Assembly: GCA_021286645.1 (NCBI GenBank)
Contig: JAJTBZ010000052.1
Coordinates: 1 to 42,148 of the forward strand
Length of the DNA stretch: 42,148 nt
Source: Ignavibacteria bacterium
Lineage (GTDB): Bacteria > Bacteroidota > Ignavibacteria > Ignavibacteriales > Ignavibacteriaceae
Direction: 5' to 3'
In this document: piece after piece, positions 5,289-27,627 of the stretch
Layout: every line of letters starts with the position of its first letter
Position numbering within the stretch: the first letter of the stretch is position 1
Notes under the pieces: model-generated
Databases searched by the model: none
What the model was told of the DNA's origin: nothing
Seen by the model: only the letters and a program-made list of their open reading frames with translations
Program-made: the position numbers and the translations under genes

Positions 5289-7445
5289 ATGATACCCCTT
5301 GATATACCTTCTATGTTATCAATTAACGATGCCATAGCAAACATAAAGAACCCGTATCAGCAGCTTTTTACAATATTTACAAAACTTTCTGACCTGTTGC
5401 AAATGCGCCTGAACGGGCTAATTACTCTTAGCTATAATCATAGCACAGTCCACTTACATTTCCGCGAAAATCTCTCGCAGGGGCCACAGTTACCTCAGGC
5501 CATTCATCACCACTCTATGAAATTAGATCAGTTCACCGAATTATTAGGAGGCCTGCCTAACACAATAACATCTGTTTCCCGGCAAGCTTTATTTGCGCTA
5601 CTGGGTAAAAATGTTCCTTCCCCTCGTTCGGGTAAAAAAGGATACGATGAATTTATTCTCATTCCCATGCTTTCTGCAGGCGAACTGATTGGATATTTCC
5701 CTCTCGAAATTGCCTTGAATACCCTTAGCAGATCTGATAAAAATTATCTCATGAATGTCGCGAATCTGGTAGCAATTTCTTTACGCAATGTAAGCGCGTA
5801 CCATGAAATGCGAATGCTGAAAGAGGAACATGAAGCAAACCTTCGAATGAACAATGCTCTTGTTACTATTAATAAGAGCGATATATTTTATGCCAGGCTC
5901 GCGGAAGAAATTAGTTCATTTATCGGGTGCGACAATGTACTGGTAAGCTTTAAGCAAAAATCCATGCTGATATCCTCTGTTGTTTCCATTATGAAACAAA
6001 AAGGCTCACAGTTTCAGGTGGTTCCTTCTGCCAAAAGCAGCAGTGTTGCAATACTTTTGGCCCGGGAAGAATTCGAGAAAAGCCGGGAGAATTCATTCAT
6101 CGAACTCTACGATGCAGATTTTGATCGAATCTGCCTGCAATCTTCCCATTTTAAACAAATGAAAGAAAAATGCGGAGCAAACTCCGTAATGTTGTTTAAG
6201 TACACATCCACAGATGAAACGGAATTACTTCTTGCTATTAGCCGGAATAGAGATACAGCACTTTCCGAGGCCAAGTATTTTTTGCAGCGCCAGGAATTAA
6301 TTACTATTCCCGGTGTACAATTCACAAGCAAATCAAATCCTACCTGGGATGAAGAATTGAGCTTTTTTTGTTCTCTTCTTCCACAATTATATTTAGTTCT
6401 TTCAAATTACCATGCTTTCGAATCTATTAACAGCTTAAAAGCTAAACTTGAAGAAGAAAAAACATTCCTGCTGAGTGAAATTAACACCAGTCAGAATTTT
6501 CAGGAAATAATTGGCAAGAGTGCTGCAATCAAAGGTGCATTGCTAAAAGTTGAGCAGGTTGCCCCGATTGATGCAACGGTTTTACTGTACGGCGAAACAG
6601 GCACAGGAAAAGAACTTTTTGCCCGGGCGATTCATAACCTTTCGTTGAGAAAAGAGAAAGCTTTTATTAAAGTTAATTGCGCCGCGCTCCCCGCGCAACT
6701 CATAGAATCGGAACTCTTCGGTCATGAAAAGGGCAGTTTTACCGGCGCTATTGAACGGCGTATCGGTAGATTTGAGTTGGCAAATGGCGGAACAATATTT
6801 CTGGATGAAATTGGCGAACTGCCTTTAGACCTTCAGGTAAAACTGCTCAGAGTGCTCCAGGAAAGAGAATTCGAGCGCATTGGTGGAAAGACTACCCTCA
6901 AAGCCGATGTCCGGATTATAGCAGCCACCAATCGGGATTTGGAAAAGGAGGTAGCGCATAACAGATTCAGGGCAGATCTGTATTTTCGTCTAAATGTATT
7001 CCCTATTCTTGTTCCTCCACTCCGTGAACGTAAAGAAGATATCCCGCTGTTAATTCGCTATTTCCTTGAACAATATTCAAAAAAGATCGGGAAGACAGTT
7101 ACCACAATAAAGAAAAACAGCCTTGATGATCTTTCCAACTACTCCTGGCCGGGCAATATCAGGGAATTAGAACATATGGTTGAAAGAGCTCTTATACTCT
7201 CAGATGGTGAAACAATCCATTTTACCGGACTCATATCGGCTTCTGAACCAACAGATATTGCGCTGCATACATCATTCAAAACTATGGAGGAAATGGAGAA
7301 GGAGCACATAATACAGGCATTACGGTACACCAAGGGTAAAGTGATGGGAAGAAACAGCGCGGCCGAGTTGCTGGGAATGAATGGGAAAACTCTTGGCTCA
7401 AGAATGAGAAAATTAGGAATTAAGCGGGAAGTGCAATTTATATAA
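5289..7445 (+). CDS. Sigma-54-dependent activator: GAF-like sensor, AAA+ ATPase, Fis HTH
   Basis: A 718-residue enhancer-binding protein of the FhlA/NorR-like layout. Residues ~1-400 have no receiver domain and look like one or two GAF-type sensor modules, so it senses a small molecule or redox state rather than a phosphoryl group. The AAA+ domain has Walker A GETGTGKE (from ~435), the sigma-54 contact loop as GSFTGA (~482, an accepted variant of GAFTGA), Walker B IFLDE (~503-507), and the arginine-containing [13 protein letters not shown] and [11 protein letters not shown]. The C-terminal Fis-type helix-turn-helix includes [20 protein letters not shown]. It should hydrolyse ATP to open sigma-54 promoters. 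Its divergent neighbour is a barrel protein with a candidate -24/-12 site. The start lacks a strong Shine-Dalgarno sequence. Function class is firm; signal and targets are unknown. Confidence 0.9.
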
Positions 7446-25809: not shown

Positions 25810-26478
25810 ATGGCTCGTAAAAAACACAGGAAACAATTTGAAGTTAGAACCCTGCCAAACGTATTTCATACGAAGCAGGAAGATATATCGCATAAACTTA
25901 TAGAATGGTTCGGTTCTGCCGGAACATATACGCTGGAATTAGGATGCGGTAATGGAGAGTACACAATTGATTTGGCCAGGAAATATCCGGATAAAAGATT
26001 TATCGGTGTTGACCGGGCAGGTGCGCGTATTTGGAATTCATCGAAATCGGCCCTAAATCAGGACGTAAAGAATGCGGCTTTTTTTCTTACCTATGTTGAA
26101 AGGCTTTCACTCATTTTCAATGAGCCTTGTATTGATGAGATATATATTCCTTTTCCCAATCCACTGCCGCGCAGGCGACATATGAAAGCAATGCTGGTGC
26201 ATCCCCGGTTTTTAGCTTTGTACAAAAAATACCTCGTACCGGGTGGTAAGATTCATTTAAAAACTGATGATGATATACTATATGAGTTTGCTTTACAGGT
26301 AGTTCGGGAGAATAATCTGATTTTGCACGTGGCTACAGAAAACACCTACCTGAGTGAAGGATTACCCGAACCGGTCCTTTTACAGACTCGGTTCGAGAAA
26401 TTCCATTTATCACAAGGGAGAACTATCAAATATGTTTGTTTTAGCTTCCCTCCGGAAGAGAAAACTCAAGATAATTAG
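25810..26478 (+). CDS. trmB: tRNA (guanine-N7)-methyltransferase TrmB
   Basis: TrmB methylates G46 of tRNA using SAM. The ATG at 25810 gives a 222-residue protein starting MARKKHRKQFE; a longer frame from 25768 begins upstream of the likely transcription start. The SAM-binding strand is LELGCGNGEYTIDLA (43-57), followed by FIGVDRAG. The motif normally written FPDPWP is here IPFPNPLPRRRH, with Asn117 where E. coli has the catalytic Asp144. The later LQTRFEK region (TxFE) is conserved. Everything else argues for a working enzyme, so the Asn may be tolerated or compensated. The stop of this gene overlaps the stop of the convergent carbonic anhydrase gene by four bases. Confidence 0.88.
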   Translation: MARKKHRKQFEVRTLPNVFHTKQEDISHKLIEWFGSAGTYTLELGCGNGEYTIDLARKYPDKRFIGVDRAGARIWNSSKSALNQDVKNAAFFLTYVERLSLIFNEPCIDEIYIPFPNPLPRRRHMKAMLVHPRFLALYKKYLVPGGKIHLKTDDDILYEFALQVVRENNLILHVATENTYLSEGLPEPVLLQTRFEKFHLSQGRTIKYVCFSFPPEEKTQDN

Positions 26479-27503
26479 AGAGAAGCAAGATATTTTTTAG
26501 TTTCTTCCACAGTAGAGAAACTACCGACACGCACACGGTACCATACTCGATGATCGGCAGAAGTGAATTCCATTATAAATGCATTGGGATATTTCGCTTT
26601 TATTTTTCTCAATTCTTTTTCGGCTTTCACCTTATTCTGCCAGGATGAAAGCTGTGCACAATATTTTTTTCCATCAGAAAAAATATTGTCACTAACCTTT
26701 ACATCAGCTTTCAAATCATAATCTGCTGAACCGGTCATTTGAGATTCCGCCATTTGAGATTTCTCGCCGGCCGGTTCTTTATCCTGCCCGGCCTTCCCGA
26801 GGTGCCCCTTTTTATTTCCCGGTTCGGCCTCTTTTTCATGATGAGATCCGGATGCTTCTGCCGCAGGTTCAAAAAAGTTCACTTCGCCACTCTCGATATT
26901 GTAAATACCACAGGCTATTTTTAGTTTCTTTTCATGAACTAATTCCGTAATAATTGAACTTTCCTGCAGGCATTTGGAAGTTTGCAATTCAACATTTTCT
27001 TCAATTGCCAATGAAAATTGCAGATTCTTATCTTTCGATTTACTCTTTGCCTTATCGACAGCGGGTTTAATTTTTCCGGCTAATGCGTTGATATTTTTAC
27101 CGAAATCGCCGCCTTCCAAAGTTGCTTTAACCGCACCACAGGCTGAGTGGCCAAGTACCACTAACAATGGGACATGTAAATGTTCAGCGCCATATTCAAT
27201 GCTTCCTAAAGTCACCTCGTCAATAACGTTTCCTGCTACCCGAATAATGAATATTTGCCCCAGGTCCTCATCAAAAATCAATTCGGGGGGCACGCGGGAA
27301 TCAGAGCAGGTAAGAATAATAGCATAAGGATGTTGACCTTTTTTCTGCTCCTCGCGCTGCGGCTTAAAATCTTTTTGCTTTGGTGTAGCCGAAAGGTAAC
27401 GCTTGTTACCTTCTTTTAGTTTTGCAAGTGCTTCATCCGATGTGACTTGCCCAAAAGCGAATACGCAAACTGTTAATATCAGAAAGAGAATTTTTTTAAC
27501 CAT
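26475..27503 (-). CDS. Periplasmic beta-carbonic anhydrase fused to a C-terminal SPOR domain
   Basis: The ATG has a perfect GGAGG seven bases upstream. Residues 1-18 (MVKKILFLILTVCVFAFG) form a signal peptide. Residues ~20-215 are a beta-class carbonic anhydrase: the zinc ligands are Cys66 and Asp68 (TCSDSRVPPE), His119 and Cys122 (LGHSACGAV), and the enzyme interconverts CO2 and bicarbonate. A charged, low-complexity linker of ~50 residues (220-272) follows, then residues ~278-342 read as a SPOR domain (GKKYCAQLSSWQNKVKAEKE, then WYRVRVGSFSTVEETKKYL). SPOR domains bind denuded peptidoglycan at division sites, so the enzyme is probably tethered in the periplasm to the wall. The fusion is unusual. 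It faces trmB convergently. Confidence 0.9.
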   Translation of the reverse strand: MVKKILFLILTVCVFAFGQVTSDEALAKLKEGNKRYLSATPKQKDFKPQREEQKKGQHPYAIILTCSDSRVPPELIFDEDLGQIFIIRVAGNVIDEVTLGSIEYGAEHLHVPLLVVLGHSACGAVKATLEGGDFGKNINALAGKIKPAVDKAKSKSKDKNLQFSLAIEENVELQTSKCLQESSIITELVHEKKLKIACGIYNIESGEVNFFEPAAEASGSHHEKEAEPGNKKGHLGKAGQDKEPAGEKSQMAESQMTGSADYDLKADVKVSDNIFSDGKKYCAQLSSWQNKVKAEKELRKIKAKYPNAFIMEFTSADHRVWYRVRVGSFSTVEETKKYLASL

Positions 27504-27627
27504 AGAACACCTCCTTGTTTTCGATGTATTATCGTTAATAAGGTAACTTTAGTTTAGAGCCACATTGCTATAACCCTCCAATTCACGCCATTCAAATGAA
27601 CAATTATGGACTTCCGTAATTCTTGCA

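Follow-up and report, generated by a model that had tools for sequence, protein, structure and literature searches.

We analyzed a window of 42,148 nucleotides, which is a whole contig (JAJTBZ010000052.1) of an Ignavibacteria bacterium genome with 99.02% completeness. Located >14 kb from either contig end, a gene on the reverse strand encodes a protein that combines a beta-carbonic anhydrase with a C-terminal SPOR domain. The gene and its parts are as follows:

26475..27503, minus strand: gene encoding the carbonic anhydrase-SPOR protein, an open reading frame of 342 aa plus stop codon with an ATG start
27510..27516, minus strand: ribosome-binding site AAGGAGG, read from the sequence, six bases before the ATG
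27450..27503, minus strand: probable Sec signal peptide, residues 1-18, read by eye, with cleavage likely before Q19
26865..27449, minus strand: beta-carbonic anhydrase domain, residues 19-213, based on Pfam Pro_CA, PDB matches and the structural model
26721..26864, minus strand: low-complexity linker, residues 214-261, based on low pLDDT in the model and low identity to the genus mate
26478..26720, minus strand: SPOR cassette without the last strand, residues 262-342 (profile match 278-342)

The start codon is immediately preceded by AAGGAGGTGTTCT. At its 3' end, the gene has a 4-base overlap with a convergent TrmB-like gene (Pfam Methyltransf_4); the other neighbors are PEPCK_GTP and a glycosyltransferase that we read as BshA-like. 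In a second genome of the genus, the corresponding gene lies on a 7.4-kb contig among different genes, one of them IspG-like by eye; therefore, the context says nothing about function. The divergent PEPCK gene, 266 bases away, was considered as a partner and rejected, as it is absent from the genus mate's 7.4-kb contig. Scans for promoters (6 sites, 3.8 expected) and terminators (2 sites, 1.4 expected) were uninformative. A sigma-54-type regulator at 5289-7445 of the window resembles by eye one at L141:2758-4908, which lies beside the sister carbonic anhydrase of genome G723; the regulator in the window is 19 kb from the carbonic anhydrase-SPOR gene, so the resemblance is perhaps due to chance.

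Domains of the carbonic anhydrase-SPOR protein

Pfam identified a full-length Pro_CA domain at residues 61-208 (E 2.7e-39, 135.4 bits against a cut-off of 25.7, profile positions 1-156 of 156). An earlier note on this DNA had proposed an apparently intact beta-carbonic anhydrase in one gene and had correctly named C66, D68, H119 and C122; R70 is also present, such that the protein has the three zinc ligands (C66, H119 and C122) and the Asp-Arg pair (D68 and R70), all of which are kept in the genus mate. The nearest PDB structure is 2a5v (Mycobacterium tuberculosis Rv3588c), both by sequence (E 6.5e-28) and by fold (TM 0.89 by target length). The carbonic anhydrase part should fold as a normal beta-carbonic anhydrase, and we predict that it interconverts CO2 and bicarbonate. 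The genome also encodes a second, divergent carbonic anhydrase-like protein (L033:1231-1827, 198 aa), in which CxDxR and HxxC are present and which, at 24.7 bits, falls short of the Pfam cut-off (25.7).

The signal peptide claimed in the earlier note is probable from a reading by eye, with residues 1 to about 18 looking Sec-type. Exported beta-carbonic anhydrases in Gram-negative bacteria have already been proposed, according to part of PMC5746736. Compared with beta-carbonic anhydrases that carry a signal peptide (Pro_CA; PRK15219), the protein in the window has the same whole catalytic domain, zinc ligands and Asp-Arg pair; however, it adds a linker and a SPOR tail, and its score against NCBIfam PRK15219, a carbonic anhydrase subfamily, is under the cut-off (157.9 bits, cut-off 221).

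AlphaFold2 modeled the whole protein with a mean pLDDT of 83.9 and a pTM of 0.61. The carbonic anhydrase (pLDDT mostly >90) and the SPOR domain are both confident, whereas the linker is disordered, with pLDDT <50 at residues 220-258.

A SPOR domain at the C-terminus had likewise been claimed, and the PF05036 profile search was significant for the whole protein (residues 278-342, E 1.1e-8, 35.7 bits against a cut-off of 21) and for the C-terminal 95 residues alone (E 7.2e-10, 39.5 bits). The domain is genuine but short: the match covers only profile positions 2-64 of 76, and the model stops with the second helix, such that the last strand is absent. Short strands ahead of the SPOR core in the model might replace it. 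With a model of the SPOR domain only (two alignment rows, mean pLDDT 88.2), Foldseek placed the SPOR domain of Pseudomonas aeruginosa RlpA best (6i09, E 0.026; 6i05, E 0.039; probability 1.00), 6i09 being a complex with denuded glycan; none of the matches reached E 0.001, and YbjN, which is unrelated, came next (E 0.044). VIA aligned the model with the RlpA domain at Z 7.5 (<8) and 1.9 A over 62 residues, followed by unrelated chains (Z 6.3), CwlC (5.9), DedD (4.9) and DamX (4.2). The Pfam match is decisive for SPOR identity, and the fold match alone is not.

Residues of note in the cassette are Q284, S287, W288, W321, R323 and R325. VIA gave aligned ranges only (model 24-86 to chain 266-328, an offset of 242 at both ends), so the following pairs between the window protein and RlpA assume an in-register match: Q284/Q270, S287/A273, W288/F274, R323/R309 and R325/R311. 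In the part of PMC6895207 that treats them, these RlpA residues, Q270, R309 and R311 among them, are contact or patch residues for denuded glycan, and R309 corresponds to FtsN R285. Q284, R323 and R325 would therefore lie on glycan-contact residues of RlpA, provided that the structures align in register; under the same assumed register, RlpA R302 has no clear partner. In profile alignments, Q284 also aligned with the first-strand Gln of CwlC and DedD. Relative to the SPOR domains of RlpA, FtsN and DamX (PF05036), the tail has the same fold by model comparison and, if in register, the glycan-site residues (one Gln and two Arg), whereas it lacks the last strand, has a conserved IF(S/T)DG ahead and sits on a metabolic enzyme.

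Distribution and origin of the fusion

The same architecture is present in the genus mate (G395, Ignavibacteriales bacterium NC_groundwater_380, 89% complete; locus L095 on JACPGF010000397.1), with 54% identity over residues 2-341; the fusion thus occurs in 2/2 genomes of the genus examined, and the earlier note's view of a true fusion, as opposed to an assembly join, held. Identity to the genus mate is 67% in the carbonic anhydrase, 43% in the SPOR cassette, 28% in the linker (over 46 codons) and 35% in the signal peptide (over 17 compared codons). Differences at codon positions 1/2/3 are 0.29/0.21/0.62 in the carbonic anhydrase, 0.63/0.52/0.65 in the linker and 0.47/0.37/0.59 in the cassette. 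Based on both comparisons, the cassette is constrained, but less so than the carbonic anhydrase.

We searched for carbonic anhydrase relatives running on into a SPOR domain in overlapping sets of genomes. Within the family (80 genomes, list complete), only the two genomes of the genus have the fusion. Across the order (163 genomes centered on G723, E at most 1e-30, a list that did not include the genome of the window), it was found only in the genus mate. Within the class (391 genomes drawn evenly, E at most 1e-20, genus mate not listed) and the phylum (395 genomes drawn evenly), where at most five candidates were scored per relative, it was found only in the genome of the window, for the phylum among the matches listed. 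Among the 100 distinct carbonic anhydrase reading frames compared, 2 have a SPOR tail. Beyond the phylum, fusions were sought solely by two exact-peptide-pattern scans of genome contigs: the first found no relative, and the second found 28 carbonic anhydrase loci, with the fusion in one (L095). Fusions with a strongly diverged carbonic anhydrase or SPOR domain could be missed by these searches.

In open-licence PMC literature, we did not find the combination of carbonic anhydrase and SPOR domain, nor any paper on Ignavibacteria and the SPOR domain; by title, nothing was on the subject of carbonic anhydrase fused to a peptidoglycan-binding domain, of SPOR with OmpA domains, or of Ignavibacterium and carbonic anhydrase. 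Exported beta-carbonic anhydrases have already been proposed and SPOR domains are well known; what appears to be new, judging by these literature searches, is their combination.

In a tree of the carbonic anhydrases (96 rows, 4 of the 100 frames being too short; midpoint root, bootstrap not settled), the fused pair forms a group (100/75) nested among SPOR-less carbonic anhydrases, so the tail was probably gained. Nearest to the pair is the SPOR-less carbonic anhydrase of G723 (fork 100/75); no SPOR gene adjoins it, based on a reading of 6 kb. Next out is a SPOR-less carbonic anhydrase in a Spirochaetes metagenome-assembled genome (fork 100/92; L096:4944-5642), which is 59% identical to that of the window, a result of either transfer or misbinning. 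A single recruitment in the genus ancestor probably gave the protein its tail, taken from the C-terminal SPOR cassette that other exported proteins and porins in this order have. In a tree of 36 SPOR rows, whose bootstrap had not settled, the carbonic anhydrase pair groups together, as does a pair of HU-domain proteins; the neighbors of the carbonic anhydrase pair are not settled, and the donor type therefore cannot be named.

The SPOR cassette in Ignavibacteriales

A cassette profile built from nine tails, two of them from the carbonic anhydrase fusions, had matches with E ≤1e-10 in 152/391 genomes of the class, a count that includes weaker SPOR types (such as the HU-domain proteins). By sequence, this profile also matched CwlC (E 0.0036), but DedD and FtsN only at E 0.37 and E 0.79, respectively. 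The genome of the window has four SPOR places, one of which is an HU-domain protein (L002); this protein matched the profile at 2.2e-15, compared with 1e-35 for the carbonic anhydrase, whose own row is contained in the profile.

We read 30 cassette loci, which are among the best matches and not a random draw, and one of which is the gene in the window. The earlier note had considered an enzyme held at the septum or wall, and the proteins that carry these 30 tails do not bear out a special link to the septum: at E 0.001, all 30 match SPOR, 17 match Adhesin_E (not all above the Pfam cut-off; e.g., one protein scores 20.3 bits against 23.7), 7 porin-like proteins match TSP_3, 6 match OmpA, 3 match an outer-membrane barrel and 1 matches Pro_CA. 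By reading, all 30 cassettes stop a few residues past the second helix, as in the carbonic anhydrase. In the 30 aligned rows, including that of the window, Q284, S286, A294, R323, V324, R325 and G327 are invariant. The tail is thus shown, at the level of sequence, to belong to an order-wide cassette. The Adhesin_E-SPOR and porin-TSP_3-OmpA-SPOR proteins of Ignavibacteriales have the same C-terminal cassette of about 82 residues with about the same end, whereas the N-terminal part of the window protein is a carbonic anhydrase.

Across these loci (L153-L182), the cassette without its last strand has a conserved IF(T/S)DG...Q-x-SSW start and, in this order, sits at the C-terminus of porins and of exported proteins that resemble Adhesin_E. 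One porin (L168:1498-2808, minus strand) has TSP_3-type repeats and a SPOR tail, with the OmpA domain absent by eye, which fits the counts of 7 for TSP_3 and 6 for OmpA; in this protein, SPOR may replace OmpA as the wall anchor.

Candidate roles of the SPOR tail

We consider it probable that the protein is a periplasmic beta-carbonic anhydrase that a reused wall-binding tail keeps on the peptidoglycan. Judging from its N-terminus, it would be exported by the Sec pathway, and the catalytic domain, with its active-site residues in place, would take up the normal beta-carbonic anhydrase fold and interconvert CO2 and bicarbonate. Beta-carbonic anhydrases are dimers or higher oligomers, so flexible linkers would attach at least two SPOR tails to each enzyme. 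As the aligned residues suggest, these tails would bind glycan strands from which amidases have removed the stem peptides, and several weak contacts between tail and glycan would add up to retention of the enzyme. The net effect would be an exchange of CO2 and bicarbonate fixed in the periplasm near the wall. Four Amidase_3 loci are present in the genome, which is therefore able to make denuded glycan.

General retention is favored because the same tail occurs on porins, beside the OmpA domain, which is usually a link to the cell wall; from the proteins that carry it, we infer that the cassette is a wall anchor. It is also favored because two other carbonic anhydrases of the class show another apparent tether. 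These two (L011 and L089, from two genomes of one genus) have the longest tails after the fused pair among the 100 frames, with a hydrophobic helix at the end by eye. The presence of the tail on a metabolic enzyme, porins and exported proteins suggests that SPOR is usable as a general wall-retention tag, and the fusion would offer a naturally evolved template for immobilizing a carbonic anhydrase in the periplasm.

Alternatively, SPOR could concentrate the enzyme at the constriction site by binding denuded glycan, and the enzyme would there control local pH or bicarbonate while the wall is split, much as the earlier note had suggested; we regard this as rather unlikely. According to part of PMC6895207, known SPOR proteins all act in division or morphogenesis, and five FtsN residues are needed for septal localization (Q251, S254, W283, R285 and I313). 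Via RlpA, with the register inferred, FtsN Q251, S254 and R285 correspond to Q284, S287 and R323, and W283 corresponds to W321 by its spacing from R285; however, I313 is left without a partner, as the tail lacks the last strand. The FtsN model TIGR02223 also matches weakly (E 5.4e-5, 22.9 bits, under the cut-off of 107.65), and the Amidase_3 enzymes could supply the denuded glycan. FtsN is marked by an N-terminal transmembrane anchor; the N-terminus here would, by eye, be a cleavable signal peptide. No division gene was read next to the fusion in the window or in the genus mate. Most of the 30 best tails are on Adhesin_E-like proteins or porins, and general wall retention therefore explains the tail equally well or better. 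A more specific version, in which the carbonic anhydrase is aimed at denuded division-site glycan and its exchange of CO2, bicarbonate and protons tunes amidases or wall synthases, is unlikely; if true, a septal carbonic anhydrase would be a direct link of inorganic-carbon chemistry to cytokinesis.

The tail could also be degenerating, i.e., a recruited SPOR relic that no longer binds glycan on what is now a soluble periplasmic carbonic anhydrase. The absent last strand and the lower identity of the cassette between species (43%, against 67% in the carbonic anhydrase) are consistent with this explanation; however, the other 29 cassette proteins stop at about the same point, Q284, R323 and R325 are invariant across the 30 rows, and second-position changes in the cassette are rarer than third-position changes (0.37 vs 0.59), all of which makes degeneration quite unlikely.

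It is highly improbable that the catalytic domain is a beta-carbonic anhydrase-superfamily enzyme with another substrate, such as carbonyl sulfide: the PDB sequence matches do include a carbonyl sulfide hydrolase (chain 3vqj, E 0.014), and the substrate cannot be read from the motif only, but carbonic anhydrases match far better, as with 2a5v. An artefact, through a frame error or a contig join of two neighboring genes, is virtually impossible given the fusion in a second assembly, the lack of any internal stop and the distance of the gene from the contig ends.

Retention on the wall would differ from the joining of a beta-carbonic anhydrase to an envelope part in SulP transporter fusions, e.g., Rv3273, which are among the closest known arrangements; the carbonic anhydrase in the window has a wall-binding tail, not a membrane transporter. 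Among the other carbonic anhydrases compared, L003 and L004 have a long N-terminal extension that is coiled-coil-like by eye, and L136 is a 744-aa frame with the carbonic anhydrase at its C-terminal end; fusions of SulP with carbonic anhydrase are a known type.
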